In this document: one piece after another, positions 1 to 8,406 of the stretch | How positions within the stretch are numbered: position 1 is the first letter of the stretch | Layout of the letters: each line of letters begins with the position of its first letter | Origin: Nitrososphaerales archaeon TH5896 | Lineage (GTDB): Archaea > Thermoproteota > Nitrososphaeria > Nitrososphaerales > Nitrososphaeraceae | NCBI GenBank assembly: GCA_014523625.1 | Contig: JAATVP010000162.1 | Location: 1-10,923, forward strand | DNA length: 10,923 bases | Direction: 5' to 3' | The notes under the pieces: generated by a model | Seen by the model: only the letters and a program-made list of their open reading frames with translations | Told to the model about the DNA's origin: nothing | Database searches by the model: none | Translations under genes and position numbers: made by a program

Positions 1-368
1 ACCTGATTGCAGTTTATCCTTTAGCTAGTAATGGTATACTTGGCTTATGGGAGCTTGCGCGAATAAGTAATTGTCATCTTGTAATCAATGATATTCCTAT
101 GGTGTTTGAAGAAATTGCAAGAGTAGCCTCAAGCGAAACTCTCGTAATGAACCCAACAGCTTCCATGAACGGTTGTCACACGATTGTCGCAACCAAAGAT
201 ATTTCAAATTTAATACTCGATGAGTTACGAAGGCATAACTTTAAGGCAACGGTAATGGGATTTGTTGCCAAAAAGGGAGAAGGGAAAGTTACCTTCGGTG
301 ATAACATCAAGGATCACTTTGCTGCTAAAATTGGACTATCAATACTTAATATACCAGTAAGTAAGTGA
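1..368 (+). CDS. AIR synthase-related (PurM/HypE superfamily) protein, C-terminal part
   Basis: This is the 3' end of a gene that starts before the window; the reading frame is open from base 3 and stops at 366-368. The fragment reads as the C-terminal domain of the PurM/HypE/ThiL ATP-binding superfamily. It has a Leu-Trp-Glu-Leu-Ala helix near its start (where family members carry a GG..L.E.A element), then hydrophobic strands, a 'VMNPTASMNGCHTIVAT' segment in the place of the family's 'dP..ltsG.l' strand, and a closing 'FKATVMGFVAKKGEG' strand typical of the fold. Members make or use ATP-activated small molecules (purine synthesis, HypE in NiFe-hydrogenase maturation, thiamine phosphate kinase). 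The visible part cannot choose among them. An internal ATG at 99 lies inside the domain and is not the start. The gene converges on the terC-like gene 75 bases downstream. Confidence 0.6.
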   Translation, partial: LIAVYPLASNGILGLWELARISNCHLVINDIPMVFEEIARVASSETLVMNPTASMNGCHTIVATKDISNLILDELRRHNFKATVMGFVAKKGEGKVTFGDNIKDHFAAKIGLSILNIPVSK

Positions 369-443
369 AATATCATATTGAACACCTTACGGAGAATATC
401 AATTACTTGAATACATCTGATTGGAGTTCTAATCCTTGTGTGA

Positions 444-1547
444 CTAATTTGAAAACTTGTTTGTATTATTCTCATCACTATTGTTCTTGTTGAGTGAAAC
501 TTCTCCTTCTGGTCTGCTTTTTCCTTCTTTTACCAAAACATACTTGATTCTAACAAATGAAAGCAGTATCGCTAATCCTAGGATTCCAAAAATAACAGCT
601 ATGGAAGTAGGTATGGGTATTTCGTAAAACTCTGATATTAACATTTTGATTCCTATGAAAAGTAATATCGCAGCCAATCCTGGTTTTAGATAGTAAAATT
701 TGTCTATCATTCCTGCTAGAAGAAAGTACAGGCTCCGCAAGCCCAGTATGGCAAATATATTAGAGGTTATTACTAGGAAGGAGTCTGTAGTAATTGCAAG
801 AATTGCAGGAATAGAATCAAGTGCAAATACCAAATCTGTCATCTCTATAATTACTAGTGCAATTAGCATTGAGGTTGCATACAATATACCATCTGATGCC
901 CGATGTAGAAACTTGTCTGAGGTATTGCCCTTTAATTCGATAGGAATAAACTTTTTCAAAATTCTTACTGCTATGTTCTTTTCAATTTCTATCTTCTTTT
1001 CCTTCTTTGCTAATAGCATTCGTATTGCGGTGAATACCAATAGACCGCCGAAGATGTATATCATCCAATGAAATGATTCAAGTAGAGAAATCCCTGCGAG
1101 AATGAGGGCGATTCTGAGGCCGATTGCACTTAGTATTCCAAGCATCAATACCTTATGCTGATAAATGTATGGGATACCAAGTGAAGAAAATATTAGCACA
1201 AATACGAACATATTATCTACACTCAATGATTGCTCAATGGCGTACCCTGTTAGGAACAAGAGCGCTTTGTCAGATCCCATACTTACAAAAATTAGGCCTG
1301 CGAATACGCAGGCTAGCGAAATCCAGATTATCGTCCAACGCAATGCATGTTCAAACGTTTTTTTGTTTTTCTCTTGATGACTCAAAAATTGTGAGTTATT
1401 GTCTGTTGAGTACTTCTTGGAAGATATTCTTCTCCTTACGCCGTCAATTACACCTAAATCTATTGCTAAAGCAGTCCCTACAAATAGCCCGAAAGCAATC
1501 CAGAATAGAGATTGATAACTACCATCTGCAAAAACAAAAGGTTCCAT
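444..1547 (-). CDS. terC: TerC/Alx-family integral membrane protein (probable metal ion transporter)
   Basis: This 367-residue polytopic membrane protein belongs to the TerC family. Members such as bacterial Alx are linked to Mn2+ export and TerC to tellurite resistance; the substrate here is not shown by the sequence. Family hallmarks are clear: 'EQSLSVDN' at 105-112 in one membrane segment, and 'EMTDLVFALDSIPAI' at 235-249 followed by 'TSNIFAILGLRSLYF' at 261-275, with the conserved acidic residues E105, D111, E235, D238 and D244 expected to line the ion site. Hydrophobic segments lie around 13-35, 70-88, 95-125, 133-155, 160-178, 222-250, 258-280, 288-305 and 312-335. A charged loop (40-68) follows the first segment, and the tail (340-367) is rich in Asn, Lys and Glu. 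The length is slightly above the ~320 of bacterial Alx. The ATG at 1547 has no clear Shine-Dalgarno sequence. It is a single gene convergent with the gene to its left. Confidence 0.92.
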   Translation of the reverse strand: MEPFVFADGSYQSLFWIAFGLFVGTALAIDLGVIDGVRRRISSKKYSTDNNSQFLSHQEKNKKTFEHALRWTIIWISLACVFAGLIFVSMGSDKALLFLTGYAIEQSLSVDNMFVFVLIFSSLGIPYIYQHKVLMLGILSAIGLRIALILAGISLLESFHWMIYIFGGLLVFTAIRMLLAKKEKKIEIEKNIAVRILKKFIPIELKGNTSDKFLHRASDGILYATSMLIALVIIEMTDLVFALDSIPAILAITTDSFLVITSNIFAILGLRSLYFLLAGMIDKFYYLKPGLAAILLFIGIKMLISEFYEIPIPTSIAVIFGILGLAILLSFVRIKYVLVKEGKSRPEGEVSLNKNNSDENNTNKFSN

Positions 1548-1843
1548 CGTAAAGCGATAGAAAATTTTAAGTCTAAGCCATATATGACTTGCAGGTATTC
1601 AATGTGTTACTTTGTATTGCCACAAGATCCAGATCTTTGACATGTTAAGAAATCATGCCTGTTAAATTGAGTAATAATTTATCCAAATAGCCTATGCTAT
1701 TTCTAATTTTTTCTCTGTTACAAGATGTTGCCGATAAAAGATAAACAAGTCAATGTTTAAGTCCGCAGAAAAATTTCTAATCTCATTAACAATTGGTTTG
1801 GCAACTGACGGGTAAGACTTGGGTGATCCATGTTACAATTTGT
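1548..1843. other. Intergenic region upstream of terC, with one hairpin
   Basis: No coding frame of note is seen. A perfect 7-base inverted repeat, AAATAGC (1685-1691) and GCTATTT (1696-1702), encloses a four-base loop. On the plus strand it is followed by a T6 run (1707-1712), which has the layout of a terminator. However, no plus-strand gene lies upstream nearer than 368, so its role is unclear. On the minus strand it lies ~140 bases past the end of the urease-gamma-like gene and lacks a T tract. Confidence 0.4.
1579..1587 (-). promoter_or_regulatory. Candidate TATA box for terC-like gene
   Basis: On the minus strand an AT-rich CATATATG element lies about 35 bases before the ATG at 1547. 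This would place transcription start around 1556-1559 and give a very short leader. A second AT-rich stretch (1563-1573) is too close to the start codon to act as a TATA box. The call rests on position and composition only. Confidence 0.3.
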
Positions 1844-2227
1844 TCAAGTCATCATGTAATTGCTAATCTTCATAGGTTCAATGAATTTTATCCGCCGTGC
1901 TGGAAAATTGTCAACATGTACGTCAAAGCTCATTTCTCTCAGAGTTTCTGGTACACCAATTAACACTTGGTCGCTTGAAAGAATACTTTGAGCAGCTTTT
2001 TCGATTTGATCTGGGGATATGTGCGATCTCATCTGTTCAATTAAATATGCACAATAAATGGCAAGCGTTTCATTAGTATTGATTTTTAGACCCATCTCAA
2101 TTTTTTTCTTGATCGATAATATGGCATTGAAAAATATCGATTCCTCCTCCTTGTCGGGAAATTGGAGCGCCCTTACGATTGGAGGAGTATCGACCTCTCC
2201 TCGAACCCTGACTTTAATATCTATCAT
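1844..2227 (-). CDS. Stand-alone urease gamma subunit (UreA)-like protein
   Basis: This 127-residue protein is the second gene of an operon with the ureohydrolase: its ATG (2227-2225) overlaps that gene's TGA in an ATGA junction, implying translational coupling. From about residue 21 to 119 it aligns with bacterial urease gamma subunit from memory with almost no gaps. Shared features are 'GLKIN' at 46-50 (GLKLN in UreA), an E-x-x-A-x-Y helix after it, E64/R67 in the next helix, 'DQVLIGVPE' at 86-94 (EQVMEGVPE in UreA), and 'FP....I...EP' near 108-118 (FPDG.KLV.VHNP). Residues 1-20 (MIDIKVRVRGEVDTPPI...) are an N-terminal extension not present in UreA. Urease gamma is a structural subunit with no active-site residues and normally sits next to UreB and UreC; neither is present in this window. 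A scaffold or activator role for the neighbouring hydrolase is inference. An alternative is a diverged remnant of a urease operon. Confidence 0.78.
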   Translation of the reverse strand: MIDIKVRVRGEVDTPPIVRALQFPDKEEESIFFNAILSIKKKIEMGLKINTNETLAIYCAYLIEQMRSHISPDQIEKAAQSILSSDQVLIGVPETLREMSFDVHVDNFPARRIKFIEPMKISNYMMT

Positions 2228-3348
2228 CGATTTTTTCTTTTTGGCCGCACTGCTTTAGGACCGTTTCCAAAATCATATGTATGTCCTTTCCCACGATAAA
2301 ACTTTGGCCTTACCGGATTACCTTCCATTTCTCCTTTCTTTGTGAGTGAAAGCCCTGCCAAAAGTTCGACAATCAGCCGATTTGCCAAGCCAGAAGTGAT
2401 TCCTCCGTTATAGGAGTTGACATCGCTTACATCATAATTGGGTGCTACCTCGACTAAATCAAATGCAAACTTGTCTGGATCAAAAGAAGTCGACAACAAT
2501 CGCATCAATCTCATGCCCTCTCTTGAAGTCAGCCCATTGGGCTCAGGCTCTCCAGTACCGGGCGCGTAGGCGGGGTCAAACGTGTCAATATCCCAACTTA
2601 TATAGACCGCATCGACGTTATCATTTGCTCTATCAGCCGCTTCCTTAGCAATCGTATCTATTCCCATTTCTTCTACATCCAGCATTGTAAACCACTGGAA
2701 ATCCTGATCAGCCATCCACTTATAGAGATCAGGTCCAGGCCAGTATCCTCTTGGACCAATAAGGGTATAATTTTTGCCCTTTAGACAACCTAGCTCCATA
2801 ATTCTTCTAATATGCGCCCCGTGATCATATTTGAACCCACAAAGTCCCTGAGGGGCGCAATCTGCGTGGGTGTCGATATGGATCATACCGATGTTTTTGT
2901 ACTTCTTCGCAAACGCTCTCACGTTAGCGAAAGTAATCGAGTGATCTCCACCTAACATTACAGGAATCCCGTCGATATCGAGGACCTCCTTAACCTTATC
3001 CGTCATTCTTCTGTGTGATTCAATGACGTCGCCCGGAGACACTACGACATCACCATAGTCTACAGTTCTAAATACACCAAAAGGGTCCACTCCTGTCTCA
3101 ATGTTGAAATGTTCATATGGAGGAGATGGCACCGTTGAGGCTGCGCGTATTGCGCGTGGTCCATATCTTGCCCCTGGACGTATCGTTGTGCCAAAATCAA
3201 ATGGCTCCCCTATTATAGCTACATCCGGTTTTATCTTTTCTAATTCTTGACGGGACCTTAGCAAAGGCAACTTCAGAAAGGTAGGTATACCAACAAATAT
3301 CGGCTCATCATTACCCTTGTAAGAATCCCCATAGAATTCCATTCCCAT
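2224..3348 (-). CDS. Arginase/agmatinase/guanidinase-family metallohydrolase (ureohydrolase)
   Basis: This 374-residue enzyme of the ureohydrolase family hydrolyses a guanidino group to release urea, or ammonia plus urea if the substrate is guanidine. All six bimetal ligands are present: H136 in 'GGDHS' (133-137), D159, H161 and D163 in 'HIDTHAD', and D253 and D255 in 'SWDIDTFDP'. The family's 'PGTGEPEPNG' (263-272), 'DHGAHIRR' (175-182) and E300 in 'DLVEVAP' are also intact, so the enzyme should be active. It is longer than typical agmatinases (~300): about 40 extra N-terminal residues precede 'DVAIIGEPFD', and a basic C-terminal tail follows residue 336. Added length with an N-terminal extension is also found in the Ni-dependent guanidine hydrolase group, but the substrate cannot be read from sequence; agmatine, guanidinobutyrate and arginine remain possible. 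The start could also be the ATG at 3342 (M3). It is the first gene of an operon with the urease-gamma-like gene. It probably acts in the cytoplasm, since no signal peptide is seen. Confidence 0.93.
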   Translation of the reverse strand: MGMEFYGDSYKGNDEPIFVGIPTFLKLPLLRSRQELEKIKPDVAIIGEPFDFGTTIRPGARYGPRAIRAASTVPSPPYEHFNIETGVDPFGVFRTVDYGDVVVSPGDVIESHRRMTDKVKEVLDIDGIPVMLGGDHSITFANVRAFAKKYKNIGMIHIDTHADCAPQGLCGFKYDHGAHIRRIMELGCLKGKNYTLIGPRGYWPGPDLYKWMADQDFQWFTMLDVEEMGIDTIAKEAADRANDNVDAVYISWDIDTFDPAYAPGTGEPEPNGLTSREGMRLMRLLSTSFDPDKFAFDLVEVAPNYDVSDVNSYNGGITSGLANRLIVELLAGLSLTKKGEMEGNPVRPKFYRGKGHTYDFGNGPKAVRPKRKNR

Positions 3349-3381
3349 CTTCTAATCGCTGAATATTAGGACACGTACAAT

Positions 3382-3390
3382 GTTTTTAAG
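3382..3390 (-). promoter_or_regulatory. Candidate TATA box for the ureohydrolase/UreA-like operon
   Basis: On the minus strand CTTAAAAAC lies about 38 bases before the ATG at 3348, preceded by a purine-rich GAAATG that could serve as a BRE. Transcription would begin near 3360 and give a leader of ~12 bases, normal for archaeal genes. No obvious Shine-Dalgarno sequence precedes the ATG. Confidence 0.4.
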
Positions 3391-3733
3391 CATTTCTAAG
3401 TAGTTTACGAATCTTGTTACGTCGAAAAATGACTACACAAAGTTATATGTTCCTAGTTTTAGAATCAGATACTAACAGATAGAGGGGATTATTAATACTG
3501 ATAAAATACGTTAAGATCTCGTGAATTGCGTTTAAATACTATACATTGAATTCATTGATTTTAGGCTAGATCAACCATTTAAAATGTGATGAAACGGCAA
3601 TAATTCTCATTAATTAGCTACTCGTAAATTAGAAGTATGAAGAGATTTGTCAAATGATATACTAACGTAATCTACGCATTGTATAATACTATACTGACGA
3701 CCAATCATTATGCGATGAATGATAAATCAATAC

Positions 3734-3767: not shown

Positions 3768-4022
3768 ATGAATGCGGTTAGAAATGAAAGTGATGTTCAA
3801 GCTCGAGCAGTAGGAGCGATTGAGGCATTGTATGGGAGAGACATTACGGATTTAAAGCTAAGATCGTTATTCTCTCTTCCTAATGAGCAAAAAAGAGAGG
3901 AATGGGATGCACAGACAACTTTTATGCTAAATAACCTTCAATATGTGGTCGATCTTACGATTAGAGAACAAGATGGTATCATATCTAACGCTAGGCTAAT
4001 AGACGTAATGAAACCTCTTTAG
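3768..4022 (+). CDS. Small hypothetical protein (84 residues)
   Basis: I do not recognise a family. The 84-residue product is acidic/basic mixed and predicted mostly helical: helix-favouring stretches at 7-22 and 26-36, a short 'LPNEQKREEWDAQ' amphipathic segment (37-49), then a hydrophobic helix 'FMLNNLQYVVDLTIREQ' (52-68) and a short C-terminal helix. It has no cysteines, no signal peptide and no transmembrane segment. Normal amino-acid composition, a TATA box at the right distance and a following structured or terminator-like region support a real gene. The next upstream ATG (3763) meets a stop at once, so 3768 is the only sensible start. It is transcribed away from the ureohydrolase operon and toward the PII-like gene, but 252 bases separate it from the latter, so a shared transcript is unlikely. 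Confidence 0.6.
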   Translation: MNAVRNESDVQARAVGAIEALYGRDITDLKLRSLFSLPNEQKREEWDAQTTFMLNNLQYVVDLTIREQDGIISNARLIDVMKPL

Positions 4023-4274: not shown

Positions 4275-4633
4275 ATGAAAGAATTGAATGTCTTTATCCG
4301 TTCAGAGCATCGTTCGAAAGTGACAGATATACTCCAGAAGAATAGAGCTGGTATCAGTTTTTTCGAGGTCCTTGGTACAGGGATCACACCAAGTGCAGCT
4401 CCGGAGGTGGTACATTCATACAGAACTCGTAGAACTACTATCATTGAATTCGTAACAAGGCTATTGGTTATGACAGTTGTGCCTGATTCTACTGCAAAAA
4501 AATAGTTGACAAGCTCATAAATAGTTTCGGTGAAGCATCAGAGCCATATGGAGCACCCTTTGTGAAGGATGTCTTCGACGCTTATCAACTAGGTACGAAG
4601 CTAGTCGGTGAGGAAATACTGACACCTAATTGA
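4275..4633 (+). CDS. PII-like (GlnB/GlnK superfamily) regulator, frameshifted at an A7 run
   Basis: The zero frame gives 76 residues and stops at 4503-4505. Shifting by -1 at the seven A's (4496-4502) continues the protein for 43 more residues to a TGA at 4631-4633, for 119 in total; PII is ~112. The joined protein follows the PII fold: 'MKELNVFIRSEHRSKVTDIL' (beta-1/alpha-1), 'GISFFEVLGTG' (beta-2), a short T-loop-like segment (37-54), 'LLVMTVVPDSTAKK' (beta-3, start of alpha-2), then after the shift 'IVDKLINSF' (rest of alpha-2), 'PYGAPFVKDV' (beta-4) and 'DAYQLGTKLVGEEIL' (C-terminal strand). PII proteins sense 2-oxoglutarate and ATP/ADP and control nitrogen transporters and enzymes; the T-loop here is short and unusual. 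The heptamer A-AAA-AAA is in the correct register for -1 slippage, but a lost A (mutation or sequencing error) would look the same. Without the shift the protein loses its last strands. Confidence 0.72.
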
Positions 4634-4830: not shown

Positions 4831-6534
4831 TTAATAATAGTGATGCATAGGCCTTTGTTGTTTACCTAGTCGATCGAAATAGTGATCATGCTTCTTGTCT
4901 CCTCCTGGATGAGAATGCTCTACACCGCCAGCGTGTGTATGAGTTTGCATATTTGGTTTGGCCATCAAAACATCATCGACGCGTAATAACATGCAGGTTA
5001 CCTCCACAGCTGTTTTAAGAACTTGTTCCTTTACTATAGATGGTTCAATTACTGAGGAAATGATATTCTTTACCTTTCTGCTTTTTGAATCAATTCCAAA
5101 CCACCTAATCTTCCCATTGGCAGGCATATGTTTAGATCTCAATTGTATTATCGTGTTGACGGTATTCATTCCGGCATTTCTAGCAAGGGTGATTGGTAGT
5201 TCCTCTATTGCTTCAGCAAACTTCTGAAGCACAAGCTGAACGCGGCCTTTTTCTTGTCTTGATTTATCTCTAATGATAGTTGCGACTTTCATTTCAGTAG
5301 CACCAGCTCCTCCAACAATTCGAGGTGATATGATATAGTTTCTTAGAACAGCAAATCCATCCAAGGCTGAACGGTGGTACTCATCGAGTACTCTTTTTGA
5401 ATTGGCCCTCAACATGAGAGTCACTGATTTAGGATTTTTACATTCGTCAATAAAGACCATCTTGTCATCACCAACCAATTTTTCATATACTTTTCCTGCG
5501 TATCCTAAGGTACTAGGAGGTATTGTTCCATTCAAATCTTTAACAACACTTGCACCTGTTGATTTCTCCAACCACAGCATGTCATTTTCTTTAACTCTAT
5601 GAAGAGTGAGAACATCTGCTCTTGACAAGCGCTGTAAAACAATTTTATTTATCCCCTTCTGAGAAATCACGAAATTTGCACCAGAATCAATAATATTCTG
5701 TACCTTTAAATCGAGTAGTTCATATTCAGATTTGTAATATTTCTCTAATTGATCAAATGATGATATATTTAATTCAGCACTAGTCCGGGTCCTGCTTCTG
5801 TCGAGTTCTTCGTTAGTCAAGAGTATTTTGGCGTTTTCAATCTGTTTGACCCTGAGTGAAGCTTCAAAGGTTTTGTCAACCACTGTGCCCCTTAATAGAG
5901 TAGTATCAGCGGAGTTACCCAGTTTTTCCTCAATTTTAATATCGTCTACATCAATTGTTTTGTTCCTCAAATCTGCGATGCTCCACACTGCCTCAACTAT
6001 TAGATCAGCAGCACCAGCATTTTCTTTAACTACTATACCGGAGATAGACCTAGTTTGAAGACAAGTCTTGGCCAGCTTACTCATTACATCTCTGTGTATA
6101 CTAGTTGAGGATACGGAAATTCGACTAAGAGTTTGAAGTGAAAATTCTAAGCCCTTAAGATAGCCATCAATTATAACTGATGGAGCGATTCCAGAGACCA
6201 ATAATTCCTGCGCTTTGGATAATAATTCTCCCGATAAGATGACAACAGAAGTAGTACCGTCTCCTACCTCATTGTCTACTGTATTAGCGGCCTCTATCAA
6301 AATTTTTGCTGCAGGATGTTCTACATCAAGTTTTCTCAATATTGCTGAACTATCTTTTGTCATTGTGATCTCTCCCATAATATCGATGTACACCTTTTCC
6401 AATCCACAAGGACCAAGTGAATTTTTAACTAGATTTGAGATCAATGCTGCTGCCAGGAGGTTATACCGACGACTCTCGTCCTCTTGATTTCTGCTAAATC
6501 CGTCACCGAATAGCTGCTCAGTGCGGGGATCCAT
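4831..6534 (-). CDS. Divergent thermosome (group II chaperonin) subunit with His-rich C-terminal tail
   Basis: This 567-residue TCP-1/thermosome-type subunit spans all three domains: equatorial (~1-140 and ~400-527), intermediate and apical (~210-370). The ATP-site loop 'EVGDGTT' (89-95, D92) and the second catalytic aspartate D392 in 'HRSALDGFAVLRN' are kept, as is 'EHPAAKILIEAANTVDNE'. Other normally constant motifs differ: GPKG is 'GPCG' (41-44), NDGATIL is 'KDSSAIL' (60-66), GGGA.E.E is 'GGAGATEMK' (408-416), and ENAG...D..D is 'RNAGMNTVNT' (452-461). The end is not the usual Gly/Met-rich tail but 'THTHAGGVEHSHPGG..KHDHY...MHHYY' with eight His in ~37 residues, suggesting metal binding. 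The frame extends 17 codons upstream to 6585, but the start at 6534 is preferred: GGAGG lies four bases before it, and the extension overlaps the TATA box. The protein is cytoplasmic; it may fold special clients or co-assemble with other thermosome subunits. Confidence 0.93.
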   Translation of the reverse strand: MDPRTEQLFGDGFSRNQEDESRRYNLLAAALISNLVKNSLGPCGLEKVYIDIMGEITMTKDSSAILRKLDVEHPAAKILIEAANTVDNEVGDGTTSVVILSGELLSKAQELLVSGIAPSVIIDGYLKGLEFSLQTLSRISVSSTSIHRDVMSKLAKTCLQTRSISGIVVKENAGAADLIVEAVWSIADLRNKTIDVDDIKIEEKLGNSADTTLLRGTVVDKTFEASLRVKQIENAKILLTNEELDRSRTRTSAELNISSFDQLEKYYKSEYELLDLKVQNIIDSGANFVISQKGINKIVLQRLSRADVLTLHRVKENDMLWLEKSTGASVVKDLNGTIPPSTLGYAGKVYEKLVGDDKMVFIDECKNPKSVTLMLRANSKRVLDEYHRSALDGFAVLRNYIISPRIVGGAGATEMKVATIIRDKSRQEKGRVQLVLQKFAEAIEELPITLARNAGMNTVNTIIQLRSKHMPANGKIRWFGIDSKSRKVKNIISSVIEPSIVKEQVLKTAVEVTCMLLRVDDVLMAKPNMQTHTHAGGVEHSHPGGDKKHDHYFDRLGKQQRPMHHYY

Positions 6535-6538
6535 GTAT

Positions 6539-6543
6539 CCTCC
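6539..6543 (-). promoter_or_regulatory. Ribosome binding site fixing the thermosome start at 6534
   Basis: On the minus strand GGAGG is followed by ATAC and then the ATG at 6534-6532. No comparable motif precedes the in-frame upstream ATG at 6585. Confidence 0.7.
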
Positions 6544-6560
6544 ACGTGTCTGATTTGAAC

Positions 6561-6569
6561 TATATAAGG
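6561..6569 (-). promoter_or_regulatory. TATA box for the thermosome gene
   Basis: On the minus strand CTTATATAG lies about 31 bases before the ATG at 6534, so transcription should begin just upstream of or within the ribosome binding site. It lies inside the 17-codon upstream extension of the frame, which argues against the longer protein. Confidence 0.5.
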
Positions 6570-6782
6570 CTTGTCTAACGAACAAATGCTATCACGGATA
6601 ACTTGATAAAAAGAGCTCACCCCAATAAGCAATCGAAGATTTTGTGTTTCAGTCGCTTACTATTCAGATTTTGATAAATTAAGACACATATATCCAATAA
6701 TTACTTTTTATCAGCCGTTCACATGTAGTATACGAATGGTAGTTCACTCTCGTATCCGTAATTTACATTATTTAGCCTAAAA

Positions 6783-6891: not shown

Positions 6892-8406
6892 TTGGTAGAC
6901 GGATATGCGATTGGGGTCATCGCATTTTTGGCGCTTTCCGTTATTGTTGGAACTCTAACCTCGAAGCTTGTAAAGAAAAGTAGCAAGCGGTTTATGATCG
7001 CTGGCAAGAGCTTGCCGCTTTTCTTCGTGGGTACAATGCTCGCTGCTCAAGCCATCGATGGTAATTCTTCACTTGGAAACGTGTCGCTGGTTTATCAATT
7101 TGGATTCTGGTCAGGAGCTGCAATTCCAATCGGACTTGCTGCATGCCTCATCTTAACGGCAATATTCTATGCAAAAAAACTTAATAAAATGTCAATGCTT
7201 ACATTGCCCGATTTCTACTTCAGGAGATTTGGAAATGCAAGTGAAGGCATTTCCGGAGTCCTTATGATGATAAGCTTCGTAGTATTGGTAGCAGGCAATT
7301 TTGCGGCAACCGGATACATCTTGTCGGTCGTTTTACATATCGACTTCATATGGGCAATGTTAATTGGAGCTATAATCGTCTTGATTTATACATATGCAGG
7401 GGGCCTATTCTCCTCAGCTTACACAGACATTTTTCAAATATATTTAGCAATAGTTGCATTTTGGGCTGCATTTCTATTCTTTGCAGGAGGCTTTGCGGGC
7501 GTCAGCTTTGATACTATTCTTGGCAGCGCTCCACCGGGGTACTTGGATTTATCTGGACTAACAGATATGGGCAATGGTGCCCTTGTTAATTGGGCTGGAA
7601 TCATGGCCTTGGCACTAGGAGACATTGTGGCATTGGATTTCATGGAAAGGGTGTTCGCAGCAAGAGACGGTAAAACCGCAAGAAGAGGAGCCTTCATGGG
7701 AGCAGGACTAACGATATTGACTATCGTTCCCACAAGCATGATGGGGATTGTTGCATTATATTTTTTGCCAGATTTGGCGGATCCCTATACTGCTTATCCT
7801 GATCTAGCGATTAACCATGTTCCATTCGTTATTGGAGTTGCATTGCTCATGGGAGTCCTTGGTGCGTCGATGTCGACTGCAAATGGCGGTTTGCTCGCCA
7901 TTTCCAGTGTCATGTCAAGAAACATTGTTCAAAGAAATATCTTGAAAAGGATACTGAAACGCCCAGGATTGGGAGATAAGAAATTGTTGATGGTGACACG
8001 TATTTTCACTATCCCTATGATGATAGCTGCGTTTGTACTTGCATACCTGATCCCGCAGCCCGGTGTTTATCTGATCCTTGCTTTTGATATCGTGTTTGCT
8101 GGTGCTTGGGCTCCGCTAACATTTGGTCTATTCTGGAAGAAGGCCAATACACCTGCAACATTGGCTTCACTTATTATTGGATCATCCTTGAGGCTATTGC
8201 TCTACTTCGTCATTCCTGTCGAATTGGCGGGACTTGATACATTAATACCTCCAGTAATATCTGTTATAATCTTTGTTGTAGTAGCGCTTGCGACACAGAA
8301 GAAATATCCTGGAAGATATGGTGTCGTTGATTATGTTCCACCGGAAGAAGACGTATTAAGTGGAGAAGACCTGAAAGGATTTGTCGCACCAAAAACAGGA
8401 AATTGA
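6892..8406 (+). CDS. Sodium:solute symporter (SSS family) permease
   Basis: This 504-residue membrane protein of the SSS family (TC 2.A.21; relatives carry proline, pantothenate, urea, sugars or polyamines) begins at a TTG backed by GGAGGT. About 13 hydrophobic segments span residues 5-25 to 450-467. Family marks are 'RFMIAGKSLP' at 33-42 after the first helix, 'TYAGGLFSSAYTDIFQ' at 167-182 (family GG...a..TD..Q), 'MERVFAARDGKTARRGA' at 251-267, and a helix with 'GASMSTANGGLLAISS' at 324-339 that corresponds to the helix bearing the conserved Na+-site serines. The C-terminal ~35 residues are acidic and cytoplasmic. The substrate is not readable from sequence. In a window with a ureohydrolase and a PII-like gene, a guanidino compound, urea or polyamine is a guess. 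The gene is transcribed alone, divergent from the chaperonin, with a strong hairpin 35 bases after its stop. Confidence 0.93.
   Translation: MVDGYAIGVIAFLALSVIVGTLTSKLVKKSSKRFMIAGKSLPLFFVGTMLAAQAIDGNSSLGNVSLVYQFGFWSGAAIPIGLAACLILTAIFYAKKLNKMSMLTLPDFYFRRFGNASEGISGVLMMISFVVLVAGNFAATGYILSVVLHIDFIWAMLIGAIIVLIYTYAGGLFSSAYTDIFQIYLAIVAFWAAFLFFAGGFAGVSFDTILGSAPPGYLDLSGLTDMGNGALVNWAGIMALALGDIVALDFMERVFAARDGKTARRGAFMGAGLTILTIVPTSMMGIVALYFLPDLADPYTAYPDLAINHVPFVIGVALLMGVLGASMSTANGGLLAISSVMSRNIVQRNILKRILKRPGLGDKKLLMVTRIFTIPMMIAAFVLAYLIPQPGVYLILAFDIVFAGAWAPLTFGLFWKKANTPATLASLIIGSSLRLLLYFVIPVELAGLDTLIPPVISVIIFVVVALATQKKYPGRYGVVDYVPPEEDVLSGEDLKGFVAPKTGN

Follow-up and report, generated by a model that had tools for sequence, protein, structure and literature searches.

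What could be the function of a protein with the fold of urease gamma when its gene adjoins no gene of another urease subunit and overlaps that of an arginase-family ureohydrolase? The question is raised by a 10,923-nucleotide stretch of Nitrososphaerales archaeon TH5896 (contig JAATVP010000162.1; this whole stretch is hereafter the window). A preliminary description of this DNA had identified both reading frames and their ATGA overlap, and had proposed that the gamma fold was recruited as the partner of a different urea-related enzyme. The coordinates of the two frames and of the overlap were borne out, both frames being on the minus strand, and the proposed recruitment gains support from genomic evidence: the position of all 81 clear gamma-like matches beside a ureohydrolase, the loss of residues characteristic of the urease gamma subunit (UreA) and purifying selection. 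Probably the gamma-like protein is not a part of urease but serves the ureohydrolase as a new helper or partner subunit.

Homology to UreA is evident from the profile search, in which the gamma-like protein matches PF00547 with 38.2 bits (E 1.9e-9; Pfam cut-off 23.9). The stricter NCBI equivalog cut-offs for urease gamma are missed (PRK13241, 35.9 of 123 bits; TIGR00193, 33.3 of 82.3 bits). Residues 24–102 align to Klebsiella UreA (1a5k) over 79 residues without a gap (E 3e-7), which agrees with the nearly gap-free alignment described earlier. The urease gamma fold is present in residues 23–120, with a significant fold match, and a strand pair formed by the N-terminal residues 2–23 is extra relative to UreA.

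When 36 gamma-like sequences are aligned with 16 true UreA sequences of ammonia-oxidizing archaea (AOA), 43 positions are invariant in these UreA; among the gamma-like rows 7 of them are kept, 10 are partly kept and 26 are lost. Maximum-likelihood analysis places the gamma-like rows in a single clade separate from UreA (branch support 98/96). The row of genome G071, which has no N-terminal extension, stands at the base of this clade, its exact place being unsure under a long-branch warning. Both genes of the pair are under purifying selection, and the gamma-like gene is much less constrained: the ratio of nonsynonymous to synonymous substitutions (dN/dS) in 12 pairs of relatives is 0.12–0.36 for the gamma-like gene and 0.007–0.041 for the ureohydrolase gene.

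Distribution of the pair was examined in 400 genomes drawn from the order. The ureohydrolase search (E ≤1e-60) gave 96 matches in 92 genomes, and the gamma-like profile (at least 73 bits) gave 81 matches in 79 genomes. A gamma-like gene lies within 400 bp of 81 of the 96 ureohydrolase matches, and none of the 81 clear gamma-like matches is found away from a ureohydrolase. No match of at least 73 bits is present in the 70 genomes that carry urease without the ureohydrolase. Synteny is thus conserved among relatives; it extends over families f1, f3 and f9 of the order and includes Ca. Nitrosotenuis cloacae. Plain urease gamma function is not favoured: the clear matches stand beside a ureohydrolase and not beside urease alone, and most of the UreA-invariant residues are lost.

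Fifteen ureohydrolase matches have no gamma-like neighbour. Nine of these are uninformative, being at or near contig ends (G031, G049, G021, G384 and two pieces in G004), partial (the second piece in G053), running into masked bases (G253) or apparently chimeric (G297); the other six are real absences, which are weighed below.

Of the 39 loci with a gamma-like gene, the window and contig C149 of the same assembly included, 25 have reading frames that overlap by 4 bases and 6 have an overlap of 1 base. Ureohydrolase, gamma-like and TerC genes occur a second time on contig C149, of which positions 1–3400 (L107) are 91% identical in DNA over 3.4 kb to positions 1–3417 of the window. This copy may have arisen by duplication, or it may belong to a second strain in the genome bin. 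No natural fusion of the two proteins was seen; a long frame in G297 consists of a partial ureohydrolase and unrelated sequence at a contig end, and looks like an assembly chimera. In L079 (7364–8479, genome G033) an in-frame stop interrupts the ureohydrolase gene, and the adjoining gamma-like frame is open.

The preliminary description had called the gamma-like gene "solo". This holds for the window, where no ureB or ureC is found among the open reading frames (ORFs), but not for most relatives, which also carry true UreABC, often a few genes away. Searches of the source assembly (92% complete) with PF00449 and for UreF gave no match. Genomes of the same genus do hold urease genes: a contig of G066 carries the C-terminal two thirds of UreC at its end, then a chaperonin, UreE, UreF, UreG and the start of UreD, and G067 contains a piece of true UreA. 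The genus therefore has urease; in the stretches that were read it is not encoded next to the pair, and the absence of urease applies to the source assembly alone. In the whole sample UreC was found in 147 genomes at E ≤1e-19, with 14 genomes of weaker match excluded; it is present in 77 of the 92 genomes with the ureohydrolase and in 70 of the 308 without it (Fisher p 3e-26, kinship ignored). The 15 ureohydrolase genomes without UreC comprise five of the window's genus and ten that are 59–91% complete.

In the urease loci read, UreBC come with a true UreA, and G043 and G026 each have two strong UreC matches. The accessible part of Abby et al. 2018 (PMC5797428) indicates that additional ureABC sets, present in N. 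viennensis and N. evergladensis, were omitted from the figure of that paper; G043 and G026 probably represent these two species. Matches to Rfam 5_ureB_sRNA (about 61–63 bits) occur near urease genes in L063 (17014–17300, minus strand) and L085 (18041–18328, plus strand) and may reflect conserved coding sequence.

The ureohydrolase possesses all the metal-ligand motifs of its family (GGDHS, DTHAD and DID), aligned to solved members. Among solved structures it lies closest to guanidinobutyrase (3nio) and to two guanidine hydrolases, 7esr and 9fek. Agmatinase equivalog cut-offs are missed (TIGR01230, 155.7 of 174.3; PRK02190, 203 of 302 bits). The motif GTGEPEPN is present in 41 of 42 AOA members read and was not found in the remaining one; GTGEPEP also occurs in the nearest haloarchaeal relatives, and the next group out has GTGTPEP. 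A C-terminal tail, YRG..TY.F, characterizes the AOA members and is missing from 13 of 13 sampled non-AOA relatives. As far as can be seen from these sequences, the enzyme represents an uncharacterized ureohydrolase clade. According to the consulted part of one publication, speB is present in 2–3 copies in most AOA (PMC10753782).

This enzyme probably releases urea. The guanidine specificity of GdmH has been assigned to Thr97 and Trp305, as stated in the available part of the source (PMC11410670); the equivalents in the window, counted by hand on the alignment, are Thr and Glu, the latter lying in the GTG(E)PEP motif. When the window and four related loci were searched, no guanidine riboswitch reached the gathering score, though in our view such a riboswitch is not required for guanidinase activity. 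Guanidine is not favoured as the substrate: the enzyme lacks the Trp of the Thr/Trp rule, and the riboswitch search gave no match. A larger, charged guanidino substrate could be guessed from the Glu. Agmatine supplied by a nearby arginine decarboxylase is possible and has no support as a general substrate, the pyruvoyl-dependent type (PF01862) being found in 2 of 50 related loci (L163 and L090).

Several characterized systems resemble the pair in part. GdmH of Synechocystis and the N. inopinata guanidinase (7esr/7oi1 and 9fek; E 7e-48 and 1.4e-47) are arginase-family enzymes sharing the Thr97-equivalent; they are nickel-dependent, and the window enzyme differs from them by Glu in place of Trp305 and by its gamma-like partner. 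A ureohydrolase with a dedicated second protein is exemplified by metformin hydrolase MfmAB (8snf), whose second subunit is an arginase-family protein and not a urease-gamma-like one. MfmAB is reportedly nickel-dependent and heteromeric. Accessory factors encoded with a ureohydrolase are also represented by GhaA and GhaB, the HypA/HypB-like nickel chaperones of guanidine hydrolase, the fold of which is unlike that of the gamma-like protein. HypA exceeded the cut-off in 0 of 18 genomes with the pair and gave sub-cut-off matches in 3 of 18; it was the only nickel chaperone looked for. The accessible portion of the literature makes mention of chaperones that load nickel in Synechocystis, and guanidine-degradation genes are reported to be lacking in AOA in the part of a 2024 survey that was available (PMC11410670).

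The nearest named non-AOA relatives of the ureohydrolase are haloarchaeal "agmatinase family" proteins, which are 52–54% identical and share the motifs TTIRPG and GTGEPEP; they differ in having another C-terminal tail. Like the AOA loci, their loci contain a nearby symporter gene (two loci) or a urease operon (one).

Features of the window and of the distant gamma-like frames discussed below are collected in Table 1, and the neighbourhood of the pair was compared in 40 related loci of 10–20 kb, most of them 17–20 kb, chosen from among the matches. Around the pair the symporter is present in 37 loci; the corresponding counts are 35 for the 84-residue protein, 31 for the chaperonin and 19 for UreC.

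Table 1. Coordinates of the features in the window and of distant gamma-like frames in urease loci
Feature	Location	Strand	Evidence or remark
TerC/Alx-family membrane protein (metal homeostasis), next downstream of the pair	444..1547	-	TIGR03718, 345 bits, over cut-off
Urease-gamma-like protein, 127 aa	1844..2227	-	PF00547, 38.2 bits
ATGA overlap (ureohydrolase stop, gamma-like start)	2224..2227	-	
Arginase-family ureohydrolase, 374 aa	2224..3348	-	PF00491, 266 bits
84-aa protein, function unassigned, divergent from the pair	3768..4022	+	35/40 loci
P-II-like nitrogen regulator, 76 aa, frame interrupted in the window	4275-4505	+	Relatives longer
Divergent group II chaperonin (thermosome paralogue), His-rich C-terminal tail	4831..6585	-	PF00118, 456 bits
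Sodium:solute symporter	6892..8406	+	PF00474, 98 bits
Distant gamma-like ORF	L209 4118-4516		
Distant gamma-like ORF	L210 15739-16134		
Distant gamma-like ORF	L211 16148-16540		
Distant gamma-like ORF	L213 6007-6375		
Distant gamma-like ORF	L214 14676-15023		

The slot after the gamma-like gene is occupied by TerC/Alx also on C149 and in G066, G067 and G068. A NicO-like gene is found in 14 of the 40 loci, in 13 of these 14 directly after the gamma-like gene and on the same strand. A NiCoT gene is found in three further loci; the single NiCoT protein scanned scored 66 bits, over the Pfam cut-off. The chaperonin carries 8–10 His in the last 45 residues in all 31 complete orthologues, the window's included. 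Among 30 chaperonins read in eight genomes, His residues within the final 40 positions number 8–9 in the three that belong to this type and at most 1 in the other 27. G007 and G027, which have no ureohydrolase, yielded no full-length chaperonin of the score class of the window chaperonin. Metal binding by the His-tailed chaperonin is possible by analogy with the GroES homologue HspA of Helicobacter, which is said to bind nickel. The neighbouring genes, with NicO-like or TerC transporters and the His-tailed chaperonin, lean towards metal handling, the preliminary description having named a scaffold, a stability factor and a docking point for metal delivery as candidate roles.

A chaperonin paralogue beside urea genes has a precedent: an Hsp60 homologue is described in AOA urease loci, and was not found in Nitrosopumilales, in the accessible part of Abby et al. 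2018 (PMC5797428). The window-type chaperonin differs from it in being His-tailed and in its presence in f9 genomes, e.g. G077 (Ca. Nitrosotenuis cloacae). A second divergent kind without a His tail (about 338–350 bits to PF00118) was observed in L103 (1415–2998, genome G066), where it lies beside ureC, and in L199 and L205. This second kind is probably the Hsp60 homologue of that paper.

The symporter could possibly import urea or a guanidino substrate, and it clusters with agmatinase in one clade according to the part of the source available (PMC11131427). The 84-residue protein adjoins the ureohydrolase or ureC in its 35 loci, f9 genomes included. Its model consists of one helix and four strands (predicted local distance difference test, pLDDT, 88) and had no match in the PDB at E 0.001 or better; a supposed likeness to gas-vesicle GvpO gained no support, two members having been scanned without a match above a cut-off. 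Relatives of the P-II-like regulator range from 119 residues (L070) to about 148 residues (L072, which matches PF00543).

The reading tentatively preferred here is that the gamma-like protein is a UreA paralogue which left urease and became the dedicated partner of the AOA-type ureohydrolase. It rests on homology, fold, coupling, co-inheritance, loss of UreA residues, purifying selection and neighbourhood. Through the overlapping frames the gamma-like protein would be made in step with the ureohydrolase; it would most likely bind the enzyme and could help to assemble, stabilize or metal-load it. A part in maturation is favoured because metal genes and the His-tailed chaperonin lie beside the pair; this chaperonin would assist, as would the metal transporter, which is TerC in the window and NicO-like in many relatives. 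The ureohydrolase would split a guanidino compound, which the adjacent symporter possibly imports, and the urea released would be converted by urease into ammonia for ammonia oxidation. A fuller version is doubtful, namely that AOA have a new ureohydrolase which is heteromeric and possibly nickel-dependent, that a urease subunit was converted into its essential subunit or its metal-loading factor, and that this enzyme, matured with a dedicated His-tailed chaperonin and a metal transporter, opens a route from guanidino compound through urea to ammonia.

A number of observations weigh against the partner role. The gamma-like gene is absent behind the ureohydrolase in G014, G015, G016, G225, G259 and G317, as established by profile search and then by DNA reading or tblastn with all 36 gamma-like proteins. 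The ureohydrolase of these genomes is 81–90% identical to that of the window, and the partner is therefore dispensable in some lineages. The AOA-specific C-terminal tail is retained in the gamma-less loci read and so is not established as a docking site. No gamma-like gene stands beside the ureohydrolase in three 11-kb haloarchaeal loci; the partner therefore appears to be an innovation of the AOA. The gamma-like protein also evolves far faster than the ureohydrolase, as the dN/dS values above indicate. Three NicO-like proteins scanned gave 21.3 bits, 27.2 bits (Pfam cut-off 27.7) and no match, and NicO-like genes are also found in urease loci without the ureohydrolase, so that they may serve urease.

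To these points distant relatives must be added. Weaker matches to the gamma-like profile were obtained in 7 of the 70 urease genomes without the ureohydrolase (G152, G168, G228, G238, G270, G385 and G399). The urease loci of G152, G168, G238, G385 and G399 carry an ORF of 115–132 residues, with 20–42 bits to the profile, next to a second symporter. These ORFs gave no Pfam match over the cut-off, and most of the gamma-like family's core positions are lost in them; the five are those found, and the profile possibly missed others. If they are true relatives, the family may persist at urease loci without the ureohydrolase, and confidence in the partner role is lowered accordingly. In G228 a broken gamma-like remnant directly precedes a NicO-like gene at a locus without the ureohydrolase, which fits decay after loss of the enzyme; the contig of G270 is too short to show its weaker match.

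The same evidence bears on other explanations. The gamma-like protein could act as a bridge that docks the ureohydrolase onto urease through a kept urease-derived surface, so that urea would pass straight on. The retained gamma fold, the occurrence of UreC in most ureohydrolase genomes and the presence of ureC in nearly half of the loci compared (counts above) would suit such an arrangement. It is nevertheless unlikely: 36 of the 43 UreA-invariant positions are lost or partly kept, so that the contacts with UreB and UreC are probably gone, and in the single-contig genomes G077, G127, G196 and G200 ureC is about 10 kb or more away. The protein might instead belong to urease, as an alternative gamma subunit or a urease maturation factor whose position secures co-expression with urea production. 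Such a role accords with the PF00547 match, with the label "urease subunit gamma" given to its relatives in public sources, with the frequent proximity of urease and with the distant ORFs in five urease loci lacking the ureohydrolase. True UreA, however, already accompanies UreBC in the urease loci read, clear gamma-like genes are absent from the 70 urease genomes without the ureohydrolase, and the missed NCBI cut-offs and lost invariant positions tell against it as well; this possibility is quite unlikely.

If the gamma-like protein were a small regulator of the ureohydrolase or the symporter, responding to nitrogen state and being neither a lasting subunit nor a metal factor, it could be dispensable, which would fit its rapid evolution compared with the enzyme and its loss from six genomes; a P-II-like gene is also nearby in the window's genus. 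The probability of such a role is low, as no ligand-binding or effector feature was recognized in the gamma-like protein and the positions it keeps are those of the urease gamma core. Hardly any credence can be given to a decayed ureA duplicate kept by chance beside an unrelated enzyme. Sequence divergence and the six losses would be expected of it, but it is contradicted by purifying selection, apparent from dN/dS in 12 of 12 pairs, and by conservation in f1, f3 and f9. The outcomes regarded as adverse in the preliminary description were thus not encountered: the matches to urease gamma are significant, the pair is conserved, and decay of a duplicate does not account for it.

In the proposed partnership a known fold is combined with a known enzyme family, a pairing of which we have seen no earlier account. 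The preliminary description knew of no account of such a pair, and none was found in the literature searched, most subscription papers lying outside its coverage. If the partner role is true, a urease subunit fold would serve a different enzyme, a case new to us, and the ureohydrolase, present in 92 of the 400 sampled genomes of the order, would be a likely source of urea for the AOA. The presence of the pair in a named organism, Ca. Nitrosotenuis cloacae, makes direct testing possible.
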